Translations under genes and position numbers: made by a program
Part shown: positions 12,371 through 45,763 of the stretch, in pieces
Position numbering within the stretch: the first letter of the stretch is position 1
Layout of the letters: each line of letters begins with the position of its first letter
Source of the DNA: Pseudoalteromonas sp. MEBiC 03607
GTDB lineage: Bacteria > Pseudomonadota > Gammaproteobacteria > Enterobacterales > Alteromonadaceae
Assembly (NCBI RefSeq): GCF_004792295.1
Contig: NZ_SRRY01000001.1
Location: 1,498,501 to 1,562,500 of the forward strand
DNA: 64,000 nucleotides
Direction of reading: 5' to 3'
The notes under the pieces: generated by a model
What the model saw: only the letters and a program-made list of their open reading frames with translations
Told to the model about the DNA's origin: nothing
The model's database searches: none

Positions 12371-13292
12371 TGATTTAATCTCTAAATCACCTGCAGAGTT
12401 AGATACACACTGCGGGATGATTGCCATTGTAGGCCGTCCAAATGTGGGCAAATCAACCTTACTTAACTACATTGTTGAGCAAAAGGTGTCGATTACTTCG
12501 CGTAAACCGCAAACTACACGTCACCGTATTATGGGTATTCATACCGAAGGTAAATACCAAGCTGTGTACGTCGATACTCCGGGTTTACACGTAGAAGAAA
12601 AGCGTGCCATTAACCGTTTAATGAACAGAGCAGCATCAAGTTCAATTGGTGATGTAGAACTGATCATTTTTGTGGTTGAAGGAACACACTGGAACGAAGA
12701 CGATGAGATGGTACTTAACAAAGTGCGCCAAAGTGGTCGTCCGGTGTTATTGGTAATGAATAAAATCGACCAAGTAAAAGATCGCGATCTTGTGCTGCCA
12801 CACATGCAGTTCTTGGGCGAAAAGTTTGATTTTGTTGGTATTATTCCTGTTTCTGCTAAGCAGGGTAAAAATATTGAACTAATCAAAGCTGAAGTAACTA
12901 AGCGTCTTCCTCTTTGCGAGTTTTATTTCCCTGAGGACTACGTGACAGATCGCTCTATGCGATTCATGTCGGCAGAAGTTATCCGTGAAAAGCTGATGCG
13001 TTTTATGGGTGATGAGTTACCTTATTCTGTCACGGTAGAAATAGAACAGTTTAAATGGCTCGATAATGGTGTTTGGCAAATCAATGGCCTTATCTTGGTT
13101 GAGCGCGAAACACAAAAACGTATGGTGATCGGTAACAAGGGCGAAAAGCTAAAAGTTATCGGTCGTGAAGCGCGTAAAGACCTTGAAGAAATGCTTGATA
13201 ACAAAGTGTTTTTAGAACTTTGGGTAAAAGTCAAATCTGGTTGGGCTGACGATGAACGTGCGCTACGTAGCCTTGGCTATGGTGAAGACTAA
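12360..13292 (+). CDS. era: GTPase Era
   Basis: Essential GTPase that binds 16S rRNA during 30S assembly. G1 [12 protein letters not shown], the switch region [15 protein letters not shown]3 DTPG, G4 NKID and G5 SAKQG are all present, and the C-terminal KH domain has the loop [18 protein letters not shown]. The 310-residue form has about 10 more N-terminal residues than enteric Era ([19 protein letters not shown]); no better internal start is apparent, and the overlap with rnc is typical. Confidence 0.97.
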
Positions 13293-13308
13293 GTAAAGCT
13301 TACACGCC

Positions 13309-13995
13309 ATGGATAGCGAATTCTACACAGCATACTTGCTGCATCGACGTCCTTTTAGTGACTCGCAAGTTATGCTTGATATGCTGGTAGAAGGCGTTGG
13401 TCAACTGAGAATGTTGGCTCGTATTAGTGGTCGCCAGGCCACTAAACATAAAGCTCAACTGCAACCTTTCCAATCTCTGCTTGTACAATACAGCGGTAAG
13501 TCTGATTTAAAATACATCACTCGTTTTGAGCCCCATGGCGGGCAAAGTATGTTAACTGGCACCCAGTTATATTGTGGTTTTTATTTGAACGAATTAACCA
13601 ATCGTATCGTACCAATCAACGAGCCGATGGAAAGTGTTTATCATCTCTATAAACAGCATTTACACGAGTTATCGACCACTAAAAGCCTGCAAGCGGTGCT
13701 GCGCTCATATGAGTTTCAACTGCTAGAGATGCTAGGTTACGGTGTTGATTTTAGCGTTGATGCGCAAGGGGATGAAATAAACGATGCAGCAAATTATCAG
13801 TACTTTGCTGAATACGGTTTTTTGTTGCATGACGACCCCCATAGTGGCTTTTCAGGAAAGCAATTAAATGCCATAGCGGCTCATGACTTTAGCGCCCCTG
13901 ATGTGTTATATATGGCTAAGCAATTAAGTCGATACCTACTCAAGCCTTTACTTGGTAAAAAGCCATTAAAAAGCCGTGAGTTATTTATTAAATAG
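13309..13995 (+). CDS. recO: DNA repair protein RecO
   Basis: RecO works with RecF and RecR to load RecA on SSB-coated single strands. The 228 residues start with an OB-fold (YTAYLLHRRPFSDSQVMLDML, GVGQLRMLARISGRQ) and continue with the helical domain (YCGFYLNELTNRIVP, FQLLEMLGYGVDF, LYMAKQLSRYLLKPLLGKKPLKSRELF). The zinc-binding cysteines of some RecO proteins are absent, as is common in gammaproteobacteria. It lies between era and pdxJ as in enterics. Confidence 0.95.
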   Translation: MDSEFYTAYLLHRRPFSDSQVMLDMLVEGVGQLRMLARISGRQATKHKAQLQPFQSLLVQYSGKSDLKYITRFEPHGGQSMLTGTQLYCGFYLNELTNRIVPINEPMESVYHLYKQHLHELSTTKSLQAVLRSYEFQLLEMLGYGVDFSVDAQGDEINDAANYQYFAEYGFLLHDDPHSGFSGKQLNAIAAHDFSAPDVLYMAKQLSRYLLKPLLGKKPLKSRELFIK

Positions 13996-14038
13996 GCTGA
14001 TACTCAGCCTTGAATCGTTGTTTTAAACAGGTAAAAAA

Positions 14039-14770
14039 ATGAAAGATATTCTTCTTGGTGTAAACGTTGATCACATTGCCACTTTACGCCAAGCGCGTGG
14101 CACGAGTTACCCAGATCCTGCGCATGCCGCTGCTGTTGCAGAGCATGCTGGTGCAGATGGTATCACCATTCATTTGCGTGAAGACCGTCGTCATATTCAA
14201 GATCGTGACGTATATGTGATGGCAAAAACGATTCAAACACGTATGAATCTTGAGATTGCAGTCACTGATGAAATGATCGACATCGCCCTTGAAGTGAAAC
14301 CTGCTTATGTGTGTTTAGTGCCTGAAAAACGTGAAGAACTCACCACAGAAGGTGGCCTTGATGTTGTAGGTAACTTTGAAAAAGTAAAAGCTGCAACAGA
14401 AAAGCTGACAGCAGCAGGAATTAAGGTTTCGTTATTTATTGATGCCGACAACGCGCAGCTTGACGCTGCAAAAGCGTGTAATGCTCCTTACGTTGAAATT
14501 CACACAGGTGCTTATGCCGATGCTGAGAATGACGAAGAGCTTCACACGGAGCTTGAACGTATTCGTAGCGGCGTACAATATGCTGATAGCCTAGGTTTAA
14601 TCGTTAATGCCGGCCATGGTCTTCATTATCACAATGTAAAACCAATTGCGGCAATGCCAGAAATTTATGAGTTAAACATTGGTCATGCAATAATTGCCCG
14701 TGCAGCGATTGATGGTTTAGAAAAAGCCGTTAGCGATATGAAACGCCTAATGATTGAAGCAAGGCTTTAA
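14039..14770 (+). CDS. pdxJ: Pyridoxine 5'-phosphate synthase
   Basis: Joins 3-amino-2-oxopropyl phosphate with deoxyxylulose 5-phosphate in vitamin B6 synthesis. The N-terminal [20 protein letters not shown], the catalytic region [17 protein letters not shown], the glutamate in [15 protein letters not shown], and the C-terminal GHGLHYHN are characteristic. 243 residues, normal length. In enterics acpS follows directly; here there is no acpS, and the operon ends with an inverted-repeat element and a terminator. Confidence 0.98.
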
Positions 14771-14875
14771 TACTAATCCGCAATAATATTAATCATTTTG
14801 AGGGATTAAACCTGTCGCTATCTACGAGGTTTTATTGCCTCAAAATAGGCTACTCAATTAAGCGAATTGGTATAA
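14771..14875. repeat. MITE-like palindromic element after pdxJ
   Basis: The ends (TACTAATCCGC and GCGAATTGGTATAA) are imperfect inverted copies. Nested inside are ATTTTGAGG/CCTCAAAAT and AAACCT/AGGTTT pairs, so the whole could fold into one long hairpin. The ends resemble those of the element upstream of rpoE (ACCAAT core). Confidence 0.5.
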
Positions 14876-14924
14876 GCTTTGAACTGCCGCCCTTTTATAG
14901 GCGCTGGCAAGTTTGAATACTGAG

Positions 14925-14957
14925 CGCGGTGGATGTGATATCCACCGCGTTTTTATT
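14925..14957 (+). terminator. Terminator of the pdxJ operon
   Basis: CGCGGTGGAT and ATCCACCGCG form a perfect 10-bp stem followed by TTTTTATTT. The T tract runs into the end of the hypothetical gene on the other strand. Confidence 0.85.
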
Positions 14958-15279
14958 TACTCAGATAAACAATAAATTGTGCAAGTAATGAAGAAAGCCA
15001 AGGCGAAAGACAGAGTAGGGCCACTAAATATTGATGTTTTTTCTTAAAGCTTTTTAAAACATCATCATCTACGGCCGACAATTCACCTTTTTTAATTGAA
15101 TGAAAAACCATCGAGTTAGGTTTTGCCTTCATTAATTGGGCTTTACTCTCGTATTCTTGCCATTGTTCTGCGTAATTGTTCTTTACGTAATCGTTTGCCA
15201 TCCCACTAAGCCTTTTATGACAAACTATGCACCATACGAACGATAGCGATACAAAAACAAAAAATGAAATAAAAAACAT
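14953..15279 (-). CDS. Hypothetical two-helix membrane protein
   Basis: No family recognised. The 108 residues have one membrane helix at each end (about 2-20 and 86-106) and a charged central part (YVKNNYAEQWQEYESKAQLMKAKPNSMV). A Shine-Dalgarno AAGGA lies about 6 nt before the ATG, which supports a real gene. It lies 28 bp after barA on the same strand and could be read from the same transcript. Confidence 0.6.
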   Translation of the reverse strand: MFFISFFVFVSLSFVWCIVCHKRLSGMANDYVKNNYAEQWQEYESKAQLMKAKPNSMVFHSIKKGELSAVDDDVLKSFKKKHQYLVALLCLSPWLSSLLAQFIVYLSK

Positions 15280-15307
15280 TTATCTTCCTTGAGATTCTTT
15301 CTAACTT

Positions 15308-18070
15308 TTATTGCTCTTCCATACCTGCATCGCTTAACAAATTATTAAGCTCATCAATTAACTCAAACAGTTCAGGCTCAATGTAATTTAAATCGCAATC
15401 GCCTTTTAATGCTGTTTCGAGAGTTTCGGCAAGTGATTTTAGTTTTGGTACGCCGGTATAACAACATGCGCCATGGAACTTGTGTACTATGCTAAGTACA
15501 TGTTCGCAATCTTCTTTTTCTATAGCTTCATTGAGCAGGCGCAAGGTCTCCGGCACGCTCAGTAATAGCATGTTAAGCATTTCAAGTGCTAGTTCTTCTT
15601 TACCGCCTGCGCGTTGTAGTGCTAATTGCCAATCAAGACGAGCGCTTTCAAATGGTGGCTCCGAATGAACGGCAGCTGCTTTACTTCGCTCACGATTAAT
15701 AGGTGATTGCGGGCTATGATCGCTGATGATTTGTTTTAGCATATCTTCATCGATAGGCTTGGTTAAGTAACCTTTAAAGCCATCTTTAAGCAGTTGCTCT
15801 TTTTCACCCGCCAAAGCGTGCGCTGTAACTGCAATGATAGGTGTATCTTCATTGAGTGATGATTCGCGAATAAGCTTACAAGCGGTAATACCATCCATGA
15901 TTGGCATTTGAATATCCATAAATATTAAATCGTATTTATGGCTTTTGCTTAAGCTATAGGCTTGAGAACCATTATGGGCGGTATCAATTAACTCAATTTG
16001 TTCTTCCAGAAGGGTACAAATAAGCTTTAAGTTAGCGTCATTGTCATCAACGACCAACACTTTAAGTGGTAAAAGCTTTTCGTCACCCTGTTCAATATTA
16101 TGTACTGGGTGATCAAGGCGATAAGGTGCAGCCAATATTTCACACAGTTTACGGTGGTTAAGCGGCTTGCTAAGGCATGCATCAGCACCACTACCAATAA
16201 ATGCCTCACGCATATTATGTGACACAGTATTGAGCATAATATATAAATAATCAGTCGCAGGGCGAACTGCTTTCACGTAGCTTTTCAGCTGCTGCATATC
16301 ATCTATTGTGGCAGTATGGCCAATAATACAGATGTCATAGCTGAAATCTTTATTGATCTCGTTTAAGAAACTTTCTTCATCTGTGCACGCAGTCACTCGC
16401 ATTTGCCATTCATTCAATAACGACAATGTTGCTTGATGAGAGTGCTCATGTGGCTCTAAATAAAGCACGCGTTTATTTATTAAGGATTGAGTAGGTAAGT
16501 CGCTGGTAATTATATTACTTGGCGTTCTAAATACCGCATTGAATGTAAAGCAGGTGCCATTGCCAGGAGCTGAGTTAAGCGTTATGCGACCGTTCATCGC
16601 TTCAACAATATGTTTAGTGATGATTAAACCAAGCCCAGTACCACCAAATTTTCGGGTAATACTTGAGTCTGCTTGGCCAAATGGTGTGAATAACGCATCT
16701 TGTTTATCCATAGGAATACCTACACCTGTATCAGTCACTGAGACCAAAATTGAGGCGCGCTCTTCATCGAGCAAGCGGTAGCCAACATCCACTTTAATCG
16801 ACCCTTTTTCAGTGAATTTAATCGCGTTACTCAACAGGTTAATTAAGATTTGTTTAAAGCGAGTCGGGTCACCGGTCAGGTTATCAGGCACTTGTGGATG
16901 AATAAAAATTGATAGCTCAAGTTGCTTTTCATGAGCGCTCGGTGCCAATAAAGTTAAAACTTCATTGATATTGTCACGCAGCTGGAATTGCATTGATTCT
17001 AGCTCCATGGCACCGGCTTCTAATTTAGAAAAGTCCAAAATATCACTAATAATGGTCAATAAACTGTTAGCCGACAGCTCAATGGTATCAAGATAATCTT
17101 TTTGATGCTTATTTAGCGGGGTTTTATAAAGCTGGCGTGTAAAACCAATTACACCATTTAAAGGCGTACGTAATTCATGACTCATCTTGGCTAAGAAGTC
17201 TGATTTTACTCGGTTAGCATCTTGCGCGTCTTTTTTGGCGATACTTAACTGGATATTTTGGGTTTCGTACTGTTCGAGTGTTTCGCGGTAATCAGAGGTT
17301 GCTTGGTCAATGTGTTTTTGCATTTCGTCACGTTGCATGACCATGGTTTGCGAAATCGTATTAAGGCCTTCTCTGAGTAACTCAAACTCTCCAAACATTT
17401 TTTTATCAAGACCGGTATCTACTTTACCTTCTATTAATCTGTCGGTAGCAAGTACTAACTTATTAAGTGGTTGAACAAACATACGGGTAAGTCTAAATGC
17501 CAAAATAGTCGCCAGCACTAACGCTAAAATAATGACAATGCCACTTATGAGCAGTGCGCGTTGCTGACCAATGATAGCCTGTTGTTTGTTGAGCATGATA
17601 ACCACAGTCCCCAATGAAGCTTGATAACTATGGTGGTTCCAAATCGAATCTTGGCGACTATGATTAACAATGGCAGTTTTAAACGTTAAGTAGTGCTCTG
17701 AATTTTTGACAATAATACCGTCTAGTGACGCTGAGTTATCGGTTATAAACTCTTTGAACTCACTTTGATATTTACTAAAAATGACAAGCTCATTGTTCTC
17801 ATCAAAAATAGCAATTGATTGAATAGCAGGGGAGTGCTTGTTATGGGTATGACTAACTAGGCGTGTTAATAGCGGTTTATCACGTTTGAGCAAGGGTTGT
17901 TCAACCGCTATAGCCAGCGGCTCAATTATTGTCACACCTTGTTGATATAAAATTTCATCGAGCTCAATGTAACGATTTATTGTAAAATAACCGCCCAGCA
18001 ACAAGCCTATGATCACAGTCGGTATTAAAGTGAGAGTTAAGACTGAGTCACGTAAGCCAAATTTAGTCAT
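15308..18070 (-). CDS. barA: Hybrid sensor histidine kinase BarA
   Basis: Tripartite sensor kinase that phosphorylates the regulator UvrY/GacA to switch on Csr small RNAs. Order: two membrane helices flanking a periplasmic sensor (about 10-30 and 170-195), HAMP, HisKA with AKMSHELRTPLNGVIG near 300, HATPase (GLGLIITKHIVEAMNG), a degenerate receiver (RVLYLEPHEHSHQ), a full receiver with FMDIQMPIMDG, and an HPt domain with SIVHKFHGACCYTG. I prefer the ATG at 18070 (MTKFGLRDSV) because it lines up with enteric BarA; an in-frame ATG at 18088 adds six residues. Divergent from rlmD, as in enterics. Confidence 0.95.
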   Translation of the reverse strand: MTKFGLRDSVLTLTLIPTVIIGLLLGGYFTINRYIELDEILYQQGVTIIEPLAIAVEQPLLKRDKPLLTRLVSHTHNKHSPAIQSIAIFDENNELVIFSKYQSEFKEFITDNSASLDGIIVKNSEHYLTFKTAIVNHSRQDSIWNHHSYQASLGTVVIMLNKQQAIIGQQRALLISGIVIILALVLATILAFRLTRMFVQPLNKLVLATDRLIEGKVDTGLDKKMFGEFELLREGLNTISQTMVMQRDEMQKHIDQATSDYRETLEQYETQNIQLSIAKKDAQDANRVKSDFLAKMSHELRTPLNGVIGFTRQLYKTPLNKHQKDYLDTIELSANSLLTIISDILDFSKLEAGAMELESMQFQLRDNINEVLTLLAPSAHEKQLELSIFIHPQVPDNLTGDPTRFKQILINLLSNAIKFTEKGSIKVDVGYRLLDEERASILVSVTDTGVGIPMDKQDALFTPFGQADSSITRKFGGTGLGLIITKHIVEAMNGRITLNSAPGNGTCFTFNAVFRTPSNIITSDLPTQSLINKRVLYLEPHEHSHQATLSLLNEWQMRVTACTDEESFLNEINKDFSYDICIIGHTATIDDMQQLKSYVKAVRPATDYLYIMLNTVSHNMREAFIGSGADACLSKPLNHRKLCEILAAPYRLDHPVHNIEQGDEKLLPLKVLVVDDNDANLKLICTLLEEQIELIDTAHNGSQAYSLSKSHKYDLIFMDIQMPIMDGITACKLIRESSLNEDTPIIAVTAHALAGEKEQLLKDGFKGYLTKPIDEDMLKQIISDHSPQSPINRERSKAAAVHSEPPFESARLDWQLALQRAGGKEELALEMLNMLLLSVPETLRLLNEAIEKEDCEHVLSIVHKFHGACCYTGVPKLKSLAETLETALKGDCDLNYIEPELFELIDELNNLLSDAGMEEQ

Positions 18071-18150
18071 AAAGAATGTTGTTATCATTATTATCGTTGT
18101 TTAAGAGTATATACTTACTTCCGCTTTATCAATAATTAAGGTGTTGCCCA

Positions 18151-19476
18151 ATGGCACAGATTTTCAAAGCCAAAAAGAAATCCGTTTCACAAAAAATGCT
18201 AACCCTGTCTGTCACCGCTATGGATCATCAAGGTCGAGGCGTAGCTAAACAAGGGAGTAAAGTTTGTTTTGTTAATGGTGCTTTGCCGGGCGAAGAAGTA
18301 AAAGCACTGTTGATAGAAGATAAGGCACGTTTTGCCAGTGCTGATTGTAAAAAAGTGCTATCAGCCTCAGAGCATAGGGTTACTCCTTTTTGCCAACATT
18401 ATCAGGTATGCGGTGGTTGTCAGTTACAACACCTTAATGCAGAGCAACAATTGGTTGAGAAGCAAGCTGCGGTTAGCCAGCTGTTTAACAAGTTTGCCAA
18501 AGCTGATGACTTAAATTGGCAAGCACCTCTGCTTAGTGAAGAGCACCATTATCGTCGCTCTGCGCGTATTGCTGTAATGCATGACAAAGCCGCCAAAAAA
18601 ATGCGAGTAGGGTATCGAGCTCAGGGTTCTAAGCAATTGGTGAGTATTGAAAACTGTGATGTGCTAAGCGGCACTTTTAAAGACGTTTTTTCAGTTTTTG
18701 ATGTTCTTATCAACAGCCATTCAGGTCTGAGCAGTATTAGTCACTTACAATTATGTGAAGCTGATAATGCGTCCTTTGTGGTTATTAGGCATACCAAAGC
18801 TATTAATGCAGAGTTAAAAGCCATTGTTGTAGCGGCGTGTGATGAATATAGCTGGCGTGTTGTGTGGCAATCACAAAGTGGTGAAATTGATCACAGTGAC
18901 CATCCAATGCCGTACTACCAGATACCAGCTTATGATTTACGTTTTGAGTTTGGCCTTGAGAACTTTATTCAAGTTAACCCGCAAGTGAACCAAGCTATGC
19001 TGCATCAAGCAAAACAGTGGCTTGATTTACAAGGTCATGAGCAGGTATTGGATTTGTTTTGTGGTATTGGTAACTTTTCATTATTAATGGCAAAGTATGC
19101 TAAATATGTTATTGGTGTTGAAGGTGTTGATTCTGCGGTTGCATTAGCCAAACAAAATGCGCAAACTAACTCTTTGTCGAATACCGATTTTTACTGTTTT
19201 GATTTAACACAGCCAATGAAATCAGCAGCTTGGTTTAGTGATGATTTTGATGTGTTAGTCCTTGACCCGTCACGCACTGGGGCGATGGCCATTTTAGAGC
19301 AGTTACCACTAACCCAGTTTAAAACGATTTTATACGTCTCTTGTGATCCTGTTACTTTAGCCCGTGACAGTGCGATTATTTTACAAGCAGGCTTTAGCAT
19401 TAAGAAAATAGGGCTAATGAATATGTTCCCGCATACCGGGCATATTGAAACGATGGCGTTATTTCACAGGAGGTAA
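18151..19476 (+). CDS. rlmD: 23S rRNA (uracil-1939-C5) methyltransferase RlmD
   Basis: SAM-dependent enzyme making m5U1939 in 23S rRNA. An N-terminal TRAM domain (LTLSVTAMDHQGRGVAKQG) precedes the four-cysteine Fe-S site (CQHYQVCGGCQLQHL plus a later Cys). The Rossmann domain has VLDLFCGIGNFSLLMA, and the catalytic cysteine is in YVSCDPVTLARD after LDPSRTGA. 441 residues, as in the family. relA starts 9 bp downstream. Confidence 0.96.
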   Translation: MAQIFKAKKKSVSQKMLTLSVTAMDHQGRGVAKQGSKVCFVNGALPGEEVKALLIEDKARFASADCKKVLSASEHRVTPFCQHYQVCGGCQLQHLNAEQQLVEKQAAVSQLFNKFAKADDLNWQAPLLSEEHHYRRSARIAVMHDKAAKKMRVGYRAQGSKQLVSIENCDVLSGTFKDVFSVFDVLINSHSGLSSISHLQLCEADNASFVVIRHTKAINAELKAIVVAACDEYSWRVVWQSQSGEIDHSDHPMPYYQIPAYDLRFEFGLENFIQVNPQVNQAMLHQAKQWLDLQGHEQVLDLFCGIGNFSLLMAKYAKYVIGVEGVDSAVALAKQNAQTNSLSNTDFYCFDLTQPMKSAAWFSDDFDVLVLDPSRTGAMAILEQLPLTQFKTILYVSCDPVTLARDSAIILQAGFSIKKIGLMNMFPHTGHIETMALFHRR

Positions 19477-33764: not shown

Positions 33765-34289
33765 ATGAAATGTTGTGTGAAGCCTTTACGTTACAGTATA
33801 TGCCTAGTGGCGTGTTTGACTGTGTCAGGTTGCAATAATACGACAACCTCTTTTCTTTCCCCTAAACAATGGCCCTTATTGCACCTTGTGCAATTGTTGA
33901 GTCAAAATATTATAAAAGTAGATAGCTCTCCCTCTTTCGTTAACCAACACGCAGCGCTTGAAACAGTTCCTGCTGGTTCATTGAATAGCACGTTAATTGA
34001 GCAACCGTTTAAACATGAATATGCCTTTGCTGTGCAGCTTGCATCGGTTCAATCAAAGCCATTACTCGCTTATTCTGTTAAAAAAATGACCAAGCGTGCC
34101 CCCAATATTTTTCAAGGTGAGCCTATTTTAAATATTGAAACCGCTACTGTTGAGCAACACACGTTTTATCGTCTTAAATATGGTGGTTACAAGTATTTTA
34201 AAAACGCACAAGCAGACTGCGAAGCCATAAAACGTCAAGGGATCGATTGCTTCGTAAGCAAGTACACGGATAATCGCGTTTACTTTTAA
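33765..34289 (+). CDS. Lipoprotein with SPOR-like C-terminal domain
   Basis: A 174-residue predicted lipoprotein: signal sequence YSICLVACLTVSGC with lipobox VSGC near residue 23. The C-terminal part resembles a SPOR domain: FAVQLASVQSKP as first strand, then HTFYRLKYGGYKYFKNAQADCEAIKRQ and the closing strand DCFVSKY, with the paired cysteines seen in many SPOR domains. I start at ATG 33765 because it gives a normal signal peptide; the frame is open upstream to a TTG at 33720. SPOR domains usually bind denuded glycan strands, but the role here is unknown. It precedes a second, similar gene. Confidence 0.65.
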   Translation: MKCCVKPLRYSICLVACLTVSGCNNTTTSFLSPKQWPLLHLVQLLSQNIIKVDSSPSFVNQHAALETVPAGSLNSTLIEQPFKHEYAFAVQLASVQSKPLLAYSVKKMTKRAPNIFQGEPILNIETATVEQHTFYRLKYGGYKYFKNAQADCEAIKRQGIDCFVSKYTDNRVYF

Positions 34290-34309
34290 TGTAATTCTTT
34301 TTAACTGGG

Positions 34310-34327
34310 TTGGCATTTTGTTTGCTA
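34310..34327 (+). promoter_or_regulatory. Sigma-54 promoter before the second SPOR lipoprotein
   Basis: TTGGCATTTTGTTTGCT has GG and GC exactly 12 bp apart and a good TGGCA/TTGC match. The predicted start (near 34337) leaves a 25-nt leader to the ATG. Confidence 0.65.
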
Positions 34328-34361
34328 GAATTTATGCCTGTTTTTTAGAGTTGACGTTTAC

Positions 34362-34763
34362 ATGATTTTTTTTACTCTTCTTAGGCATTTGTTCATTATC
34401 TTAAGTTTATCAACTTTGGCAGCGTGTATGATGACGCAAGAGCAAGATGAGCCTGTTTACACTAAGCAGCAAGTGCAACCTGAGCTCGCTACTGACAATA
34501 ATCAAGCTGCAGGTGTGCAGCTGGGGCTATATTTGTCAGTGAATAAAGTGAGTCATCAAGTATTGAAGCTAAAACATGATTATCCTAATGCTTTACAAGG
34601 GCTTAGTTTTCGCTTTAAACAGCGTGATCAAAAGGGAGTCACTTTGTATGCGCTGCGTGCAGGACCTTTTAAAAACTACAGCCAGGCCAGCGCTTTTTGT
34701 GAGATTGCTAAAAAAATGGGTCAGTCATGTGTAACTGCAACATTTGTTGGCGAGATGCTTTAA
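34362..34763 (+). CDS. Small lipoprotein with SPOR-like domain
   Basis: A 133-residue predicted lipoprotein (signal FIILSLSTLAAC, lipobox LAAC near residue 22). After a linker rich in Gln, Asp and Asn the rest is SPOR-like: GVQLGLYLSVNK, then VTLYALRAGPFKNYSQASAF and the closing strand SCVTATF, with the two cysteines again. Together with the gene before it this makes a tandem of two SPOR lipoproteins. A sigma-54 promoter lies directly upstream, which suggests control with the flagellar genes. I know no named family for this pair. Confidence 0.7.
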   Translation: MIFFTLLRHLFIILSLSTLAACMMTQEQDEPVYTKQQVQPELATDNNQAAGVQLGLYLSVNKVSHQVLKLKHDYPNALQGLSFRFKQRDQKGVTLYALRAGPFKNYSQASAFCEIAKKMGQSCVTATFVGEML

Positions 34764-35144
34764 TTATTACTTTTTGTATAAAATAATAATCGCAGCTACT
34801 TTGCTCTTCATAATTAACAGCCTCGCATACTCGGCCTGAGTAGCGATTATAACCAGCAAGCAGACTTATCATTAAAAGGCTTATTCGCTTAGATAAATAC
34901 CAACTCGAAATACAGAAACCACCCATGGGGATAAGCCTGAAACTAACAGCGTTAAAAATTACTTATTGACGATTGTATGGATGCAGAGGGTAGAGCAATG
35001 CAGGAGCAACTGCCAGGAACAGCTAAATAACCAAATTGGTATCAGAGTTTCTCGTTTCTAGACTATCAAGGTAAATCTCGCCAATAATAATAGTTAGGCA
35101 TAATTATTGCTTTGTATTTGTCATGTTGAAAGAGGATGGCAAAT
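34764..35144. other. Intergenic region before the FlgO-family genes
   Basis: About 380 bp. An imperfect inverted repeat around 34786-34850 (ATAATCGC... and ...GCGATTAT) is visible, and a sigma-54 promoter at the right end. No gene with a credible start or family match. Confidence 0.5.
35095..35111 (+). promoter_or_regulatory. Sigma-54 promoter of the FlgO-family operon
   Basis: TTAGGCATAATTATTGCT has GG and GC 12 bp apart and a TTGCT -12 box; the -24 has AGGCA rather than TGGCA. The predicted start near 35122 gives a 23-nt leader to the ATG at 35145. Confidence 0.55.
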
Positions 35145-35738
35145 ATGCGTCTGTTAGTTTATTTCGTTTTTTTAGTGTTAGTGGGTTGTAGCTTAATCGA
35201 AGAGCAACAAAAAACGCCCCCTAGAGAAACGCCAAAATCACCGATGGCTCCTTATACAGTGCATCAATATGTTACTGATTTAAGTAGTCAGTTAAGTCGT
35301 ATTCAAGGCCCTTACAAAGGTAATGCGCGCATTGCTGTTACGAGCTTTTACATGGCAGATGGCCTGGGGACTAAGTTGGCGCAAGACCAAGGCAGTGGCT
35401 TGAGTCAGCAAATTCAAGAGAGCTTACTTACGCAATTTACCCAGCTAGGCTTTCATACTATCGAATATCGATTAGAAAATACTTTAAATTTGCAGCCAAC
35501 GGCCGATAGTGTACTTAGTCGCGATATAAAAACCTTACGCCAACGTCAGAATATTGACTTTGTTATTACCGGCACACTTACCCGGCAACAACATGCCTAT
35601 ATAGTGAATGCTCGACTCGTCAATACAAAAGATCAGCGTGTTGTATCTGCGGCAAGTACAGAGATCCCGATAAACGTTATGTGGGGAGCTGAAAAAGTAC
35701 AGCAGCGTAATGGTCAGTTGTATCGAAGCGAATATTAA
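35145..35738 (+). CDS. FlgO-family lipoprotein (first of three)
   Basis: A 197-residue predicted lipoprotein (MRLLVYFVFLVLVGCSL, lipobox LVGC) with a FlgO-like domain: VHQYVTDLSSQLSR, RIAVTSFYMADGLGTKLAQDQGSGLSQQI, DSVLSRDIKTLRQRQNIDFVITGTL and VNARLVNTKDQRVVSAA. FlgO is an outer-membrane lipoprotein needed for flagellar stability in Vibrio. I start at ATG 35145, where GAGG lies 9 nt upstream, rather than at 35136. It is the most divergent of the three paralogs and leads the operon. Confidence 0.82.
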   Translation: MRLLVYFVFLVLVGCSLIEEQQKTPPRETPKSPMAPYTVHQYVTDLSSQLSRIQGPYKGNARIAVTSFYMADGLGTKLAQDQGSGLSQQIQESLLTQFTQLGFHTIEYRLENTLNLQPTADSVLSRDIKTLRQRQNIDFVITGTLTRQQHAYIVNARLVNTKDQRVVSAASTEIPINVMWGAEKVQQRNGQLYRSEY

Positions 35739-35752
35739 GAGGAATTCAATTA

Positions 35753-36427
35753 ATGAAACGTTTAATTTTAAGTATGTGTTTGCCTATGGGATTTGGTTGC
35801 TCTTCGATGCTTGCTAGTGATACACCTGAACAGCACGATGAACCACAGCTAATGGCTCAACGAGAAGTGGCTGCACCGCATAGTAACGACAGCGTATTTC
35901 AAACTAATCAAGCCGTGTTAAACAACAGTAGTTTTACCGCAGCGCCAACTCGTAAAAATATCAATCATTATGTACGTGGCATCATGCAAGACTTAGTTGA
36001 AAACTTGCAATATGTGAACGATAAAACCCCTATTGCTGTTTCAAGCTTTGTGTATCTAGATGCTGACTACAACTCAACCACGTTGCTAGGCAACCAGCTC
36101 GCTGAAAGTTTTATTCACGAACTGCATACCTTTGGTGTACCTGTTGTCGATTTCAAAACGACCGATTATATGCGTGTAACGCCTAGTGGTGATTATGTAT
36201 TTAGCCGAGATTATTTAGAGCTTAACCAAGACCAAAACTTTAATTATGTGCTAGCCGGCACCCTAGTTAACCATCAAAGCGGGGTACTGGTGAATGCTCG
36301 TATCGTTGGTTTGGCAAGTAAAGCCGTGGTGGGATCTGCACAAGGGTTTATTCCGCAATCTGTGGTCGATGCCTTAGATAGCACCAATCGTAGCGACGGA
36401 ATAATGCTAAAACAAGCAAGTGAGTAA
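35753..36427 (+). CDS. FlgO-family lipoprotein (second of three)
   Basis: A 224-residue predicted lipoprotein with signal sequence RLILSMCLPMGFGC (lipobox-like GFGC, not ideal). The FlgO domain is the clearest of the three: NHYVRGIMQDLVENLQ, TPIAVSSFVYLDADYNSTTLLGNQLAESF, VVDFKTTDYMRVTPSGDYVFSRDY, YVLAGTLVNHQSGVLVNARIVGL. It starts 14 bp after the first copy and ends 3 bp before the third, so the three form one transcription unit. Confidence 0.87.
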   Translation: MKRLILSMCLPMGFGCSSMLASDTPEQHDEPQLMAQREVAAPHSNDSVFQTNQAVLNNSSFTAAPTRKNINHYVRGIMQDLVENLQYVNDKTPIAVSSFVYLDADYNSTTLLGNQLAESFIHELHTFGVPVVDFKTTDYMRVTPSGDYVFSRDYLELNQDQNFNYVLAGTLVNHQSGVLVNARIVGLASKAVVGSAQGFIPQSVVDALDSTNRSDGIMLKQASE

Positions 36428-36430
36428 GGT

Positions 36431-37084
36431 ATGAAAGGTATTTTCTTAGCATTCATATTATTAGCGCTGTCAGGTTGCCAATTACTTGCTGAGCAAGGCG
36501 AGGCAAATCAAAGCACGGCTAACACCACATCATCACAAGCTGATTACGTTGCTATGTTGCAAGAGCTCGAGCAAAAAGAGTCGCAACAAACGAACGAAAA
36601 TCACCGCTTATTTGTGCCTTATCAGCATCACAAAACGCTGGTTAATTATGTTGAGCAAATGGCACTTGAATTAGTTGATACCATGCAGCAAGAAAGTGAG
36701 TTAGGTATTGCAATAACGACGTTTGTCGATCTTGATACAAGCTTAAAAAGCAGCTCGCAACTTGGCAATCAAATCGCCGAGTCTATGATGTACCAACTAC
36801 AAAAGTTTGGTTATGGGGTTGTTGATTTTAAAGCGATGGATGTGATTAACGTAACCGCCCGCGGTGATTTTGTTATGTCGCGTGACGTAGAAGAGCTTGC
36901 TGAGCGCCGTATCGCTAGCCATGTGTTAGCAGGCACACTAATTTATCGAACCAATGGTGTAGAAGTAAATGCCCGAGTAGTGAATTTAAATTCCAAACTC
37001 GTTGTTGCTAGCGCGCAAAAAGTGATCCCGTACTTTGTACTCAAAAATGAGTCGATTCAATTCGCAACAGCCAAACTAAATTAG
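36431..37084 (+). CDS. FlgO-family lipoprotein (third of three)
   Basis: A 217-residue predicted lipoprotein (MKGIFLAFILLALSGCQLL, lipobox LSGC). A Gln- and Glu-rich linker to about residue 60 precedes the FlgO domain: VNYVEQMALELVDTMQ, GIAITTFVDLDTSLKSSSQLGNQIAESM, VVDFKAMDVINVTARGDFVMSRD, HVLAGTLIYRTNGVEVNARVVNLNS. It is close to the second copy in spacing and motif order. Last gene of the operon; a hairpin without a T tract follows. Confidence 0.87.
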   Translation: MKGIFLAFILLALSGCQLLAEQGEANQSTANTTSSQADYVAMLQELEQKESQQTNENHRLFVPYQHHKTLVNYVEQMALELVDTMQQESELGIAITTFVDLDTSLKSSSQLGNQIAESMMYQLQKFGYGVVDFKAMDVINVTARGDFVMSRDVEELAERRIASHVLAGTLIYRTNGVEVNARVVNLNSKLVVASAQKVIPYFVLKNESIQFATAKLN

Positions 37085-37127: not shown

Positions 37128-37168
37128 CAAATGCTTGATTCAAAAAGCCTTAGCCCGTTATAATTTTA

Positions 37169-37217
37169 GCTACAAGCTACAAGCTACAAGCTACAAGCTA
37201 CAAGCTACAAGCTACAA
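37169..37217. repeat. Heptanucleotide tandem repeat, seven copies
   Basis: GCTACAA is repeated seven times without error, followed by a partial GCT. It ends 21 bp before the tRNA gene. Length may vary between strains through slippage. Confidence 0.95.
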
Positions 37218-37238
37218 GCTTTACCTCAGCTTTTGAGT

Positions 37239-37313
37239 GGCCTCTTAGTTAAATGGATATAACGGCCCCCTCCTAAGGGGCAGTTACAGGTTCGATTCCT
37301 GTAGGGGCTACCA
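37239..37313 (+). tRNA. tRNA-Arg (CCU)
   Basis: A 75-nt cloverleaf: acceptor GGCCTCT with AGGGGCT (G-T at the first pair, T-G at the fifth), D arm TTAGTTAAATGGATATAA, anticodon stem GCCCC/GGGGC with loop CTCCTAA (anticodon CCT), T arm ACAGGTTCGATTCCTGT, and an encoded CCA end. It is very close to the enteric tRNA-Arg(CCU). The decoded codon, AGG, is rare. A tRNA next to a toxin-antitoxin pair is a common island border, but I found no repeat of its 3' end downstream. Confidence 0.93.
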
Positions 37314-37394
37314 AACCTCACCTTTTGAATATCACCCCCAATAATTTCACCATAAATGTAATTATTAATGACCAAAGTAATACTGAAAATTATT

Positions 37395-37566
37395 AAAGTC
37401 TATTAAGGTAGACTTTAATAGAGGTATTGTGATTATTTGCATATAAAGTCTATTGTATTGGACTTTATTGTGGCTTTTAAGTCTTATAACTGTAAAAGTC
37501 TTTTTAAGTAGACTTTATTTGATTTTATGGTGTAGGTTGAAATTAAAGTCTGATAGATTAGACTTT
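37395..37566. promoter_or_regulatory. Four operators AAAGTC-N10-GACTTT at 50-bp steps
   Basis: Perfect inverted repeats at 37395-37416, 37445-37466, 37495-37516 and 37545-37566. Each is AAAGTC, ten bases, GACTTT, and consecutive copies start exactly 50 bp apart. The last ends 30 bp before hipB. They are the probable binding sites of the HipB repressor. Confidence 0.85.
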
Positions 37567-37596
37567 AATAGAAACATTGTTCAAATTGAGATTGTG

Positions 37597-37899
37597 ATGG
37601 CAAAGAAAGTTAAAGCGAGTAAATCCCCAGATTTAAGTAGGGCGTTCACACCTTCTTTGCTAGGTGACGTTATTAAAGCGAAGAGAACACAAAGCAATAT
37701 CACGCAAACTGACGCTGCATTACTTTCGGGTATATCAAAGCAGACATACATAAATATTGAACAAGGTAGTGCTGATGTAAAAGTGGCCTCGTTAATGAAA
37801 GTTGTCTCGGCATTAGGCGTAAAGATATCAATTGAGCCATGGCAAAGTGATAGCACAGCTAACTCACCGCTGGAGGATGAGAATGACGTCTGGGTCTGA
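37597..37899 (+). CDS. hipB: HipB-like antitoxin / transcriptional repressor
   Basis: A 100-residue Xre-type helix-turn-helix protein (LLGDVIKAKRTQSNITQTDAALLSGISKQTYINIEQGS at about 21-58), expected to neutralise HipA and repress the operon. I start at ATG 37597 (MAKKVKASKSPD); the frame is open far upstream but would cross the operators. The distal end overlaps hipA by 17 bp, so the two are translationally coupled. Confidence 0.88.
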   Translation: MAKKVKASKSPDLSRAFTPSLLGDVIKAKRTQSNITQTDAALLSGISKQTYINIEQGSADVKVASLMKVVSALGVKISIEPWQSDSTANSPLEDENDVWV

Positions 37900-39196
37900 T
37901 AGATATACGCTCGATATAATTTATAGCCAAAAGCTGGTTGGTAAATTACATCTTTCTAGAGAAAGCGATAATTTATCATTGAGTTATCAACAAGAGTGGG
38001 TGGATGAGGGCTTTCCAATATCTCCTCATTTACCTTTTGGACATGACATACCTTCTGTCAATATCAGACGTTTTTTACAAAACTTACTACCCGAAAATAA
38101 GGGGCTAGATTATTTAATAGATTACTTAGGGGTATCACGGACGAATGTATTTGCTCAGATCGGTGGAATTGGTAAAGATACCTCTGGGGCTATGATGTTT
38201 TTACCTGAAGGTGCTTTAAACGATAAAGTAAAAAGTAACTTTATCGCTATTAGTGATGCTGAACTGATCAAAAAGTTATCTGATCCTCAATTTTGGCATT
38301 TGGAAGTCTGGGACGGCAAACCAAGATTGTCAGTAGCAGGTGTTCAATCAAAATTAAATGTATTGTCAGTTGATGGCAAGTTAGGTTTTGGTGAAGGAGA
38401 CCTTTGTTCTACCCATATTATTAAGTTTGAAAAGAATAATCAGCAACATCTTGTTATAAATGAATTTGTAACAATGAAACTTGCAAAACTAGCTGGGCTA
38501 AGTGTTGCAGAGGTTGAGCTTAAATATTTTGATCACCACCCTGCATTACTTGTAGAAAGATTCGATAGAAAATTGTTTAGCCCTGAAAATGTAAAGCGCA
38601 GGCATATGATTGATGCATGCCAAGCTTGTAATTTAGGGGTTGATAAAAAGTACGAAAGAAATTTAGGTAAGCAGCGAGATGTTCGTCACATTCGTGATGG
38701 TGCAAGCTTTGAAAAATTGTTTGCGCTATCTAAACTCTGCGAAAACCCAATAGCGGCAAAAATTGAAATTTTAAAGTGGGCGTTATTTAATCTTTGTATC
38801 TACAACTCAGATGCACACGGTAAAAACTTTAGCTTTTTTGTGCAAAAATCAGGTCTAATCCCTGCGCCATTTTATGATTTAGTAAACGTTAAAATGTATC
38901 CAGAGTTTGAACAGGATCTAGCTATGAGTATAGGAGATGAGTTTGACCCAGATGCAATTAATGCCTATCAGTTAGTTGACTTTGCAGATGAAAATGGAAT
39001 TTCAAAAAAGTTACTACAAAGCCATCTAACTAAAATAGCGACAAGTATTAAAAATAATTTACAACAGGCGATATCGCTTGTTGATAGCCCTTCAAAATCA
39101 CAAGTGTCATATTTAAAGCATTACTTTGATATAGTTAATGCACGTTGTGAGCACTTTCTTGAACAGGCAACTGTAATCCCTGATATCGAACTATAG
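37883..39196 (+). CDS. hipA: HipA-family serine/threonine kinase toxin
   Basis: HipA of E. coli phosphorylates glutamyl-tRNA synthetase and induces persistence. The 437 residues carry GAMMFLPEG, the ejectable loop SVAGVQSKLNV with the autophosphorylated-type serine, ATP-binding HIIKFEKNN, LLVERFDRK, the catalytic NSDAHGKNFSFF (Asp and Asn) and the metal-binding FYDLVNVKMYP. All key residues seem intact, so it is probably active. ATG 37883 is preceded by GGAGG at 6 nt; this overlaps hipB. Usual family length. The target cannot be told from the sequence. Confidence 0.9.
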   Translation: MTSGSDRYTLDIIYSQKLVGKLHLSRESDNLSLSYQQEWVDEGFPISPHLPFGHDIPSVNIRRFLQNLLPENKGLDYLIDYLGVSRTNVFAQIGGIGKDTSGAMMFLPEGALNDKVKSNFIAISDAELIKKLSDPQFWHLEVWDGKPRLSVAGVQSKLNVLSVDGKLGFGEGDLCSTHIIKFEKNNQQHLVINEFVTMKLAKLAGLSVAEVELKYFDHHPALLVERFDRKLFSPENVKRRHMIDACQACNLGVDKKYERNLGKQRDVRHIRDGASFEKLFALSKLCENPIAAKIEILKWALFNLCIYNSDAHGKNFSFFVQKSGLIPAPFYDLVNVKMYPEFEQDLAMSIGDEFDPDAINAYQLVDFADENGISKKLLQSHLTKIATSIKNNLQQAISLVDSPSKSQVSYLKHYFDIVNARCEHFLEQATVIPDIEL

Positions 39197-43118: not shown

Positions 43119-44018
43119 ATGAATTTAAAAGATTTTGAATATGTAAAAGCGGTGGCGCAGTTTAAACACTTTCGTAAAGCCGCAGATGCTTGTTATGTCA
43201 GTCAGCCAACTCTCAGTGGACAAATTAAAAAGCTTGAACAAGAGCTTGGAGTGACAATATTTGATCGCTCTACTAAACAAGTCACTTTAACAGCGCAAGG
43301 AACGCGTTTACTTAGTCAAATTTCTCTTATCCTTGAACAAACCAAGGTGCTTAAAGAGTTGGCGGCAAGCTCTCACGATCCACTCAAGGGGAAGGTTAAT
43401 GTTGGTATTATTCCTACCATCGCGCCTTATTTATTGCCGACCTTGTTAACTTCAATGAAGCAGGCCTTCAACGAAACACAATTTTCATTCATTGAAATGC
43501 AAACCGCACAAATACTGACAGCACTCGATGCCGGCGATATTGATATTGCGATTGTCGCTGATGTGCCAGATTTAGCGAGCTATCATATTTCGTCTTTGTA
43601 TAAAGAAGATTTTTTAGTGGCAGTGTCTGAACAACACCCACTTGCAAGCCGAACAGAGGTGGTACTGCGTGAGTTAAACGAATGCGATATTTTAATGCTA
43701 AACGAGGGGCATTGCTTTAAAGAGCAAGCTGAACAGTTCTGTTTTTCGGCAGGAGTTGAAGTGTCTAATCAGTACAAAGGTAATAGCATCGAAACTTTAC
43801 TTGCGCTGGTGGCGATGAATGACGGCATTACCTTTGTACCAAAACTAGCATGTACAGCACGTGCAGGAATAAATTACCTTACGATGAAACCAAACCAGCA
43901 ACGTCATGTGGTTATTGCAACGCGTAAGCATTACCCACACATTGCTGGAGTAGAGTTGTTAGCGCAATGGCTAAGCCACCATGAAGGTTTAAAAGCTCAT
44001 TTGCTCTTTTCCAGCTAG
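43119..44018 (+). CDS. oxyR: Hydrogen peroxide sensor-regulator OxyR
   Basis: LysR-type activator of peroxide defence. Helix-turn-helix at about 18-37 (KAADACYVSQPTLSGQIKKLE). The sensing cysteines are in GHCFKEQAEQFC, nine residues apart, as Cys199 and Cys208 of the enteric protein. 299 residues. It is divergent from the peroxiredoxin gene and its own promoter region has an OxyR site, implying autoregulation. The 3' end overlaps flgT (opposite strand) by 30 bp. Confidence 0.95.
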   Translation: MNLKDFEYVKAVAQFKHFRKAADACYVSQPTLSGQIKKLEQELGVTIFDRSTKQVTLTAQGTRLLSQISLILEQTKVLKELAASSHDPLKGKVNVGIIPTIAPYLLPTLLTSMKQAFNETQFSFIEMQTAQILTALDAGDIDIAIVADVPDLASYHISSLYKEDFLVAVSEQHPLASRTEVVLRELNECDILMLNEGHCFKEQAEQFCFSAGVEVSNQYKGNSIETLLALVAMNDGITFVPKLACTARAGINYLTMKPNQQRHVVIATRKHYPHIAGVELLAQWLSHHEGLKAHLLFSS

Positions 44019-45191
44019 TTCAACAATATCGTTAATCTGAATATTTGGCAGTGGCTGTTGGTCAATGCTTATTGCAACCGCAGACTGCTGATAAAGCTGT
44101 GTAACTTTTAACTGGTTTAACGTGGTTATCTTATGGGGCAACTTGTTACCTTGCGCATCGGTTAAGTAATTATGATGTGCAATATTTAGTATTTGCCCTT
44201 GTTCAAGACCATGCGCTTTACCAAGATTAATGATTAGCCTATCGTTTTCAATATGTAGAATTTTACCTTGAGTAGGCAAGCAAGCCATAACTGCTTGCAA
44301 GTCATAGGTCAATGTTTGGTTTATGTCGGTAATGGCTTTGCCATAATCGGTTGCCCAAAATCGGTCGCTGTAAACATCGATAATTTCGGTTTTTTTGTAT
44401 GGCCAAATCCCTTCTGTTTGATAGCTTTTTTGCCAAAGTTTTTCGTATGTCGTGCCATCAAATAACACATAGTCAACTTTGTATGCGCGCTTAAAACTAT
44501 CGTCTTGCCAAAAAGCATAGTCGTTATTGATTTTATGATTGACCGATAAGTCACGAATACGACTTAACAATACATATTGCGAATTGCTGCGGCTGGTGAT
44601 CTCTTCAAGTAATGCATTACTGTAGTCATATTGCTGTGTAAAAAAATGATCGACCCTTAGTGGCAAATTATAATAAGCCGTGGGTTTAGCAGCCATTTGA
44701 GTGTTCTCTAAGCTGGTATACAGATGCTCACTAATCGCTTTGTTTACGTCAAAAATTTGGCCCATACGAGCTTGTTCACGATTAGCCAACTGGCTTTGTG
44801 TAACTGCAATAAATTTAGTGTATTGATTTGCTGGGCACTCTTCAGCTTGTGGAAAAATATCTAAACGCAGGGTAATGGCATAGGTGTCGTTATGGCGGTT
44901 TTCGCTGATCAATTCAATTTTTTGTATTTCACCATGGCTACTGATCTTTAGTTGATCTTGTGTCAAAACCCCGTCAACTAAGGTTTGTACAGAGGAAACT
45001 CGAGCGCCAGAGAATACTAAAGCTTGCGTTATCGCATCTTTTATCGCGGCTGACTTTGCTTGACTAGTATCACCATTTTTGACCGTAGCATGTCCTGTAG
45101 ACTCAAACCATTGAGCTAAACTATTGTTTGAAAAAACAATTGCACTGACTAAACCAAGCCATTTTATATTTGCCATAATTTTAACTTTCAT
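43989..45191 (-). CDS. flgT: Flagellar H-ring protein FlgT
   Basis: FlgT builds the H ring around the LP ring in Vibrio sodium-driven flagella and helps MotX/MotY assemble. The secreted 400-residue protein shows the N-terminal FlgT domain (WFESTGHATVKNGDTSQAKSAAIKDAITQALVFSG region), a middle domain with NSQYVLLSRIRDLS and RAYKVDYVLFDG, and a C-terminal part (ILHIENDRLIINLGKAHGLEQGQ). I start at ATG 45191, where AGGTG lies about 6 nt upstream. It diverges from flgP. Confidence 0.93.
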   Translation of the reverse strand: MKVKIMANIKWLGLVSAIVFSNNSLAQWFESTGHATVKNGDTSQAKSAAIKDAITQALVFSGARVSSVQTLVDGVLTQDQLKISSHGEIQKIELISENRHNDTYAITLRLDIFPQAEECPANQYTKFIAVTQSQLANREQARMGQIFDVNKAISEHLYTSLENTQMAAKPTAYYNLPLRVDHFFTQQYDYSNALLEEITSRSNSQYVLLSRIRDLSVNHKINNDYAFWQDDSFKRAYKVDYVLFDGTTYEKLWQKSYQTEGIWPYKKTEIIDVYSDRFWATDYGKAITDINQTLTYDLQAVMACLPTQGKILHIENDRLIINLGKAHGLEQGQILNIAHHNYLTDAQGNKLPHKITTLNQLKVTQLYQQSAVAISIDQQPLPNIQINDIVELAGKEQMSF

Positions 45192-45251
45192 GCTGACACC
45201 TAGCATTGATACTCATAGATTACAGGTAAATGAGCAAGGACTGTACCAGAT

Positions 45252-45304: not shown

Positions 45305-45763
45305 ATGCGAGCACTTTTATTAAGCGGGCTAGTTGCCTGCACAGCATTAACAGGCTGCAGCAGTATTTTCGACAAGCATGTCGAGTATCGCTATGTAGAG
45401 CCTGATAATTATCCAGTACTAAAAGCAATAGGTTACGCGCCAATTAGCGCTCAACCAAGTAGCAATGAGTCGCAACGCACCTTACTTGCAATTAAAGCGT
45501 CAAAGCTTGAAGCTTACCGTGAACTTGCTGAGCAAGTGTATGGGCAAAAAATTTCCGCAGGCACAACAGTGCAAAACAGTATTGCTCAAAACGATCAATT
45601 ACAAAGCCAAGTATTAGGTGTCATAAAAGGTGCGCAGGTTATAAAAACTTATGCAGTAGGCGATACCTACGCAACTGAATTACAACTTGATATGAAACGC
45701 GTACATGACCTTTATATTGGCGAAATAAAACCACGCGAAGTGAAAAAAGTAACCTATTACTAG
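45305..45763 (+). CDS. flgP: Flagellar outer-membrane lipoprotein FlgP
   Basis: LPP20-type lipoprotein needed for flagellar outer-membrane structures in Vibrio and Campylobacter. Signal MRALLLSGLVACTALTGC with lipobox LTGC. The body has ALLAIKASKLEAYRELAEQVYGQ-like sequence (LLAIKASKLEAYRELAEQVYG), typical of FlgP. ATG 45305 has GGAAG 7 nt upstream and fits the sigma-54 start; the frame is open to 45230. In Vibrio flgO precedes flgP; here it does not. Confidence 0.9.
   Translation: MRALLLSGLVACTALTGCSSIFDKHVEYRYVEPDNYPVLKAIGYAPISAQPSSNESQRTLLAIKASKLEAYRELAEQVYGQKISAGTTVQNSIAQNDQLQSQVLGVIKGAQVIKTYAVGDTYATELQLDMKRVHDLYIGEIKPREVKKVTYY

Follow-up and report, generated by a model that had tools for sequence, protein, structure and literature searches.

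We analysed a window of 64,000 nt from Pseudoalteromonas sp. MEBiC 03607 (contig NZ_SRRY01000001.1, positions 1,498,501 to 1,562,500 of the forward strand), in which a row of five genes encodes two SPOR-domain proteins (S1 and S2) and three FlgO-domain proteins (the trio O1, O2 and O3). "The window" denotes this whole stretch. A preliminary description, made from the sequence alone, had named five consecutive genes here, and all five are present at that place, on the + strand and in the order described. Its domain calls agree with our Pfam search, in which two SPOR and three FlgO domains scored over their curated cut-offs (Table 1). No useful name for any of the five genes came from NCBIfam, whose FtsN-like matches to S1 and S2 were far below the cut-off. 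An alternative start of S1 is a TTG at 33720. All five proteins had been predicted to be lipoproteins, which suits the four with a lipobox that is normal by eye, but less so O2, whose lipobox is atypical (GFGC). Across the genus, a strict lipobox pattern is matched by 77/79 O1, 75/76 O3, 33/40 S2, 20/79 O2 and 15/38 S1 proteins.

The FlgO matches in the whole genome are exactly three, namely O1, O2 and O3. It had been claimed that flgP stands apart near flgT, with FlgO tripled about 8 kb away, and this is borne out: the genome-wide FlgO search places no such gene between the trio and flgT/flgP, nor near flgT-flgP in the window.

Table 1. Positions of the five genes and associated features in the window.
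Feature	Positions	Strand	Basis
S1, SPOR-domain lipoprotein gene	33765..34289	+	Pfam SPOR (PF05036), E = 1.1e-8, 35.7 bits against a cut-off of 21
Sigma-54-like -24/-12 site, TGGCATTTTGTTTGC	34311..34325	+	36 bp before S2; 9/10 core positions
S2, SPOR-domain lipoprotein gene, shortened	34362..34763	+	Pfam SPOR (PF05036), E = 9.6e-7, 29.5 bits against a cut-off of 21
Interval holding an operon of about 5.5 kb (pilin1-pilin2-chaperone-usher-S3) in close relatives; none of its genes here	34764..35095	+	
Sigma-54-like site, AGGCATAATTATTGC	35096..35110	+	25 bp before O1
O1, FlgO-domain lipoprotein, ancient paralogue	35136..35738	+	PF17680, E = 5.5e-36, 123.7 bits against 22.6; trees
O2, FlgO-domain protein, counterpart of the canonical flgP-linked FlgO	35753..36427	+	PF17680, E = 4.4e-45, 153.1 bits against 22.6; trees; best match to solved FlgO
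O3, FlgO-domain lipoprotein, ancient paralogue	36431..37084	+	PF17680, E = 6.4e-42, 142.9 bits against 22.6; trees, weakly resolved
flgT, no flgO adjoining	43989..45206	-	PF16548, PF16539, PF16538; solved FlgT chains
flgP, no flgO in front	45305..45763	+	LPP20; solved FlgP chains; longer open reading frame from 45230

Distribution and ancestry of the FlgO trio

FlgO is present in 107 of 108 Pseudoalteromonas genomes and FlgT in the identical 107, the exception (G078) being without FlgO, FlgT and FlhA. Copy number is three in 80 of the genomes, four to six in 25 and two in 2. The family sample gave FlgO in 177 and FlgT in 171 of 196 genomes, with eight discordant cases: FlgO without FlgT in G158, G239, G245, G276, G279, G282 and G294 (a weak FlgO match only in G158, G279 and G294) and FlgT without FlgO in G258. 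One genome, G117, has FlhA while both FlgO and FlgT are missing. Most FlgO-bearing genomes in other families of the order have one copy among the matches listed.

We compared the distance between FlgO and FlgT in genomes with single and multiple copies. Where FlgO is single, 37/37 genomes with both places listed have it no more than 3 kb from FlgT (37 of the 40 single-FlgO genomes; G264 was placed later, and G282 and G294 have no FlgT). Where a genome has at least three FlgO genes, the listed copy, the only one measured, falls inside this distance in 3 of 59 cases (60 genomes minus G278, whose FlgT place is not listed). The trio and a flgP-linked flgO seldom occur together. The trio is old and lineage-wide, and replaces the flgP-linked flgO. 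Its O1-O2-O3 order is retained in most loci of the genus, and the distance from O3 to flgT shrinks to about 0.4-0.6 kb in the relatives L033, L034 and L041. Two related species (L047 and L120) lack O3 while keeping O1, O2, flgT and flgP, and so provide a natural experiment on O3.

In phylogenetic trees of 68 and 98 FlgO proteins, O2 groups with flgP-linked FlgO (ultrafast bootstrap 99 in one tree and 98 in the other), and O1 and O3 fall outside that group. Because of these trees, we assign O2 as the counterpart of the classical flgP-linked FlgO, and O1 and O3 as paralogues older than the genus. The match to solved FlgO is best for O2 (E about 1e-35), followed by O3 (about 9e-25) and O1 (3e-13). 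The solved FlgO-domain chains are in entries 9yfg, 9yh6, 9yh7 and 9yds, which we take to be Vibrio motors. A literature search yielded no paper on these recent structures. Read from chain counts and molecule names only, these and related entries hold on average 58 FlgO copies each (174 chains over three entries and 58 in one); FlgP has 58 copies and FlgT 26 in entries of the same series, and FlgP has 52 or 26 in other entries.

SPOR genes and a pilus-type operon in related genomes

Gene order was read in 80 of the 108 genus genomes, the window included, which were picked by hand for variety first, then as close relatives, then others. Loci were annotated by comparison with proteins of the window and relatives, and the exclusion of L042 (no O1 on the expected strand) left 79 loci, each scored over the interval from galU (or thyA, or the contig edge) to O1. 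The interval holds a pilus-type operon in 39 loci, SPOR genes only in 22 (the window among them) and neither in 18. The usual operon consists of S2, two small secreted proteins, a PapD-like chaperone, an outer-membrane-type protein of about 985 aa and a further SPOR-type gene, S3. S1 or a related gene often stands in front, as in part of the relatives. P. shioyasakiensis (L134) and P. gelatinilytica (L133) are among the operon-bearing species. Exceptions in the operon-bearing group are ushers in pieces (L044 and L083), absent pilins (L122) and operons cut by a contig edge (L052 and L098). Among the 18 loci with neither, O1, O2 and O3 stand in a row in 14, O3 is missing from L047 and L120, and L043 and L126 have another arrangement, with a second operon type further downstream.

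Pfam matches identify several operon products, among them the lipoproteins, which have SPOR matches. In L035 we found PapD_N (1.1e-7) and DUF4402 (2.5e-6), the second pilin being just under the cut-off (23.4 against 25.2 bits), and in L133 the DUF4402 matches reach 6.6e-9 and 9e-12. The name usher-like for the large protein comes from its operon context, on which its identity as an usher depends. SPOR domains over the cut-off end 6 of the 15 usher-like proteins or relatives scanned (L176, L186, L043, L057, L189 and L192). Relatives of this protein occur at E 0.001 or better in 78 of the 108 genus genomes, some of them only distant; some genomes of loci with neither operon nor SPOR genes have such relatives elsewhere. 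The window's genome has no relative of the usher-like protein at E 0.001, and the operon is absent.

On the FlgO tree (75 of the 79 loci, no formal test) loci with SPOR genes only are dispersed among operon-bearing ones, and this suggests that the operon was lost repeatedly in the genus. By eye, the last bases of S3 still precede O1 in L078, which speaks for deletion of the operon; a possible, weaker trace of the S3 end lies just before the O1 site of the window.

We estimated selection on both groups of genes from the nonsynonymous (dN) and synonymous (dS) divergence and their ratio (omega). Across nine species pairs with the operon absent from the locus, omega is 0.03-0.22 for O1, O2 and O3 where dS is finite, and the same range holds in the four pairs without any usher match in the genome (L034/L041, L047/L120, L101/L128 and L096/L109). 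Because O1 to O3 are constrained at loci without the operon, and in genomes without any usher match, we conclude that the trio works without the fibre that the operon would encode.

S1 and S2 diverge faster, their dN exceeding that of the FlgO genes by a factor of about 2 to 9. Their omega is 0.09-0.28 where dS is finite (window-type and operon-bearing pairs), and between the operon-less loci L037 and L079, whose dS is unsaturated, it is 0.26 for S1 and 0.18 for S2. In a large clade with S1 and S1b, constraint is strong on S1 (0.04-0.09) and weaker on S1b (0.16-0.64). The S2 protein of the window is 133 aa long, whereas that of operon-bearing relatives has about 190-220 aa, and alignment places the loss in its middle region; S2 is also shortened in L037 and L079. 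With moderate confidence, we regard S1 and S2 as functional orphans. That the SPOR genes are pure junk is not favoured, because of the omega values and of a retained promoter-like site.

This site was found by scanning for sigma-54-like sequences, defined as at least 8 of the 10 core positions of the -24/-12 consensus. Sigma-54-like sites stand upstream of S2 in 31/40 loci, O1 in 67/79, FlgT in 48/55, FlgP in 40/54 and FlgB in 10/11. None was found before 63 GalU, 61 ThyA, 48 Lgt, 40 PtsP, 39 peroxiredoxin and 30 OxyR genes, nor before 37 S1 (that of the window included), 82 O2 and 36 pilin1 genes; FlgN has the site in 3/38 cases, and pilin2, usher and O3 once each. Shuffling each upstream sequence once, with base composition only preserved, gave 0/40 for S2, 0/79 for O1 and 0 to 4 sites per gene class. 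In all five loci that have S1 and S2 only (the window, L037, L078, L079 and L106), a site with 9/10 positions precedes S2. Outside the genus, the site is patchy. From this comparison we infer that sigma-54 probably drives S2 and O1.

Related loci beyond the genus and the neighbouring region

The usher-like protein led to 23 gammaproteobacterial loci outside Pseudoalteromonas, which overlap in part with the numbered genomes. SPOR-type genes belong to the cluster in 20 of the 23, as called with our own profiles (three were checked with Pfam, both of L154 and one of L165), and FlgO adjoins it in seven: Paraglaciecola (2), Rheinheimera, Bowmanella (2), Aestuariibacter and Alteromonas. The other 16 are without FlgO in the stretch examined, two of them on short contigs, which counts against a necessary link between FlgO and the usher. 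Three loci of metagenome-assembled genomes (L187, L195 and L208) were counted from cluster annotation and lie outside the later scan.

Among family genomes outside the genus, the start of the usher-like gene is no more than 8 kb from a FlgO gene in 16 of the first 41 placed and 4 of a further 12, that is in 20/53 genomes and 7/23 genera, where the 8-kb limit was set after viewing the places, both operon types were pooled and related genomes are not independent. L215 and L228 have flgT-flgP within the same cluster. Three of the 56 genomes (G167, G200 and G228) were unplaced, and the chance figure of 1 percent used with the first 41 is rough. The usher at E 1e-30 was found in 0/19 FlgO-less genomes (hypergeometric 5e-4), which are mostly small, a confounder.

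In L057, L223, L224, L229, L230 and L232, a second type of chaperone/usher operon includes a FlgO-domain gene of its own, which lies upstream of the chaperone gene; the ushers of this type measure about 1040-1210 aa. In L057 the operon lies at 12227-19034, near further FlgO genes, and SPOR domains occur in the usher-like proteins of both L043 and L057. Three alphaproteobacterial loci have, close to the usher-like gene, a gene with an AMIN match and without a SPOR match (L190:6724-7641, L200:5812-6852 and L204:6131-7135); of the three AMIN matches, that of L190 alone exceeds the cut-off. Because this alphaproteobacterial counterpart shows AMIN matches, wall-binding parts may be general in the usher-like system.

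The 8-kb gap between the trio and flgT contains HipB-like and HipA-like genes and, by a reading of the translations, genes for a dehydrogenase, an NhaD-like protein, a peroxiredoxin and an OxyR-like protein. Upstream of the HipB-like (37600-37899) and HipA-like (37883-39196) genes, four 39-nt copies with palindromic cores and an exact 50-bp spacing occupy 37392-37580, and look like an operator array of this toxin-antitoxin pair. A perfect 7-bp tandem repeat (AGCTACA, 7.6 copies, 37168-37220) lies directly before tRNA-Arg(CCT) at 37239-37313. The 3' ends of flgT and the OxyR-like gene share 30 bp (43989-44018).

Interpretation and comparison with known systems

We put a probability of about 70% on the reading that two units stand side by side at this locus, a flagellar FlgO trio and orphan SPOR lipoproteins from a lost pilus-type operon. 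Under this reading, the O1-O2-O3 operon would be expressed from a sigma-54-type promoter and provide the polar flagellum with the FlgO of its outer-membrane (H-ring) part. O2, as the counterpart of Vibrio's single FlgO, would form the FlgO ring, and the old paralogues O1 and O3 would most likely occupy further positions or rings of the same assembly. The trio would have taken over upon loss of the flgO in front of flgP. S1 and S2 would be SPOR lipoproteins of the outer membrane that remain from an operon under sigma-54 control, which would have encoded a chaperone/usher-type surface fibre with pilins, a PapD-like chaperone, an usher-like protein and SPOR lipoproteins. Probably they still link the outer membrane to denuded glycan, either at the pole or at the septum.

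Several observations weigh against this reading. Sigma-54-like sites also precede unrelated genes (RppH 3/37 and chaperone 4/42), the window's own FlgP has none in the upstream scan, and the window taken alone holds 90 matches, which is just slightly more than chance (shuffled mean 73.5, standard deviation 7.8), with 1 of 100 shuffles reaching 90. The FlgO trees have weakly supported deep branches, several of them under 70 and those of O3 above all. The loss of the middle region of the window's S2 could be decay, and dS is infinite or saturated in several comparisons with the window. The single FlgO of G264 (locus L225) lies away from flgT. None of 15 usher-like proteins or relatives reached the cut-off of the Pfam Usher model (PF00577), one weak match having E 0.015; a search of the PDB with the usher-like profile returned no usher among the 60 of 72 matches listed, and none was found with the usher-like protein itself. 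Lastly, G245 and G282 retain FlgO though they are without FlhA and FlgT, and some FlgO may therefore serve something other than the flagellum. The FlgO genes of these two genomes (L213 and L214) are relics or have a non-flagellar role. They lie at a locus read as mnmC/fabB, with no fibre genes in the stretches examined, and this does not decide between FlgO roles.

The preliminary description had suggested that the five proteins could together make up an envelope structure surrounding the flagellar base. Their adjacency, the sigma-54-like sites before both S2 and O1 and the neighbouring FlgO and SPOR genes of some other genera would agree with such a structure, but 18 of the 79 Pseudoalteromonas loci have FlgO genes and no SPOR gene before O1; the FlgO genes of these 18 are constrained, and 14 of the loci have complete O1-O2-O3 rows. 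The SPOR genes instead go with the pilus-type operon, which is absent here; in the 23 loci outside the genus, SPOR-type genes are found in 20 and FlgO in only 7. The roughly 2- to 9-fold higher dN of the SPOR genes also speaks against a joint role. Because the trio and the SPOR genes are inherited separately in the genus, we reject one joint five-protein structure in this organism, which we regard as improbable. The same description had offered, as its other possibility, a second structure that shares parts with the first. Taken as shared parts or control with the flagellar base, this idea gains indirect support from the sigma-54-like sites before S2 and O1 and from the recurrence in other genera of FlgO beside the operon with SPOR-type and usher-like genes, and it is worth testing in operon-bearing relatives. 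A different role for FlgO would be that O1 and O3, perhaps all three, are primarily a ring or collar for the usher of the SPOR-bearing fibre, kept for another reason after fibre loss. The proximity of usher-like and FlgO genes in 20/53 genomes, the FlgO-domain gene within the second operon type, the absence of the usher from all 19 FlgO-less genomes and the FlgO of the flagellum-less G245 and G282 are in its favor. We nevertheless give it little credence, as FlgO is constrained in genomes without any usher match, tracks FlgT (the same 107/108 in the genus and 8/196 discordant in the family) and is missing from the stretch examined at 16/23 loci outside the genus (two of them on short contigs), while the small size of most FlgO-less genomes confounds the 0/19 count.

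The remaining alternatives concern one unit each. S1 and S2 could be decaying pseudogenes, with the FlgO trio alone functional here, as the shortened S2, the lost operon and the fast divergence might indicate; we consider this unlikely, since the frames are open, the SPOR domains score over the cut-off, the lipobox is kept, omega is low between the operon-less L037 and L079, and the 9/10-position site stands before S2 in all five S1-S2-only loci. The three FlgO copies, being tandem members of one family, could also be redundant and serve dosage, not specialised roles. We think this very improbable, given that O1 and O2 fall into distinct groups that predate the genus, that the O1-O2-O3 order is mostly kept and that O3 is missing, on its own, from L047 and L120. 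Finally, a wider proposal is doubtful as a whole: FlgO-domain lipoproteins would be general ring parts of the outer membrane that serve both the flagellum and an undescribed wall-anchored fibre of chaperone/usher type, sigma-54-controlled and with a SPOR-bearing usher and lipoproteins, and both machines would be built and regulated together at one pole in Alteromonadaceae, the fibre having been lost here and its SPOR anchors kept and reused.

Many marine bacteria of this family have three ancient FlgO paralogues where others have one, and the trio offers a natural test of how the extra outer-membrane rings of polar flagella evolve. The analysis further suggests a pilus-type system whose assembly parts bear SPOR domains and whose genes lie near flagellar ring genes; it would connect fibres on the surface and anchoring in the cell wall with the flagellar pole. 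In a literature search that covered mostly open literature and few subscription journals or preprints, we found no description of a SPOR-bearing chaperone-usher pilus, of DUF4402 pilins or of such pili in Pseudoalteromonas. Titles and abstract openings from mostly open literature on FlgO in Pseudoalteromonas or on FlgO paralogs likewise contain no mention of a FlgO trio.

The accessible part of one study lists one FlgO candidate per genome and mentions no trio (PMC6375700). There, the P. haloplanktis FlgO (PSHAa0755) stands apart from FlgT (PSHAa0761) and FlgP (PSHAa0762), the P. tunicata candidate (PTUN_a3193) is apart from FlgT/FlgP in locus numbering, and FlgO, FlgT and FlgP of Colwellia carry the neighbouring numbers CPS_1468-1470. 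The window belongs to the same genus as the first two and has FlgO likewise apart from FlgT/FlgP, with three FlgO genes here and one per genome in that list. Excerpts of other studies report that several Pseudoalteromonas have sheathed flagella and that loss of flgO in V. alginolyticus leaves about 10 percent of flagella periplasmic (PMC7175336), that the V. fischeri flgO promoter is FlrA-dependent (PMC3948606) and that flgP is tied to swimming in P. lipolytica (PMC10634453); flgO and flgT are merely mentioned as strain-specific in the available portion of an Alteromonas study (PMC12838423).

The operon of the relatives resembles those of chaperone-usher pili in having a PapD-like chaperone, two small secreted subunits and a large outer-membrane-type protein in one gene row. 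It differs in its DUF4402 subunits, in the SPOR lipoproteins of the row and in the large protein, which the Pfam Usher model misses (0/15) and which is SPOR-ended in 6/15. SPOR domains are found in proteins such as FtsN, DamX and RlpA. S1 and S2 share with SPOR-domain lipoproteins (PF05036) a SPOR domain after the lipobox, and are distinguished by being of a type encoded with, or left from, a pilin-chaperone-usher-type operon and by two domain cysteines conserved across aligned members. The trio shares with the Vibrio H-ring FlgO (PF17680) a FlgO domain over nearly the whole profile, a lipoprotein-type signal and co-presence with FlgT and FlgP. Whereas Vibrio has one flgO before flgP, the window has three ancient paralogues in one operon away from flgP.

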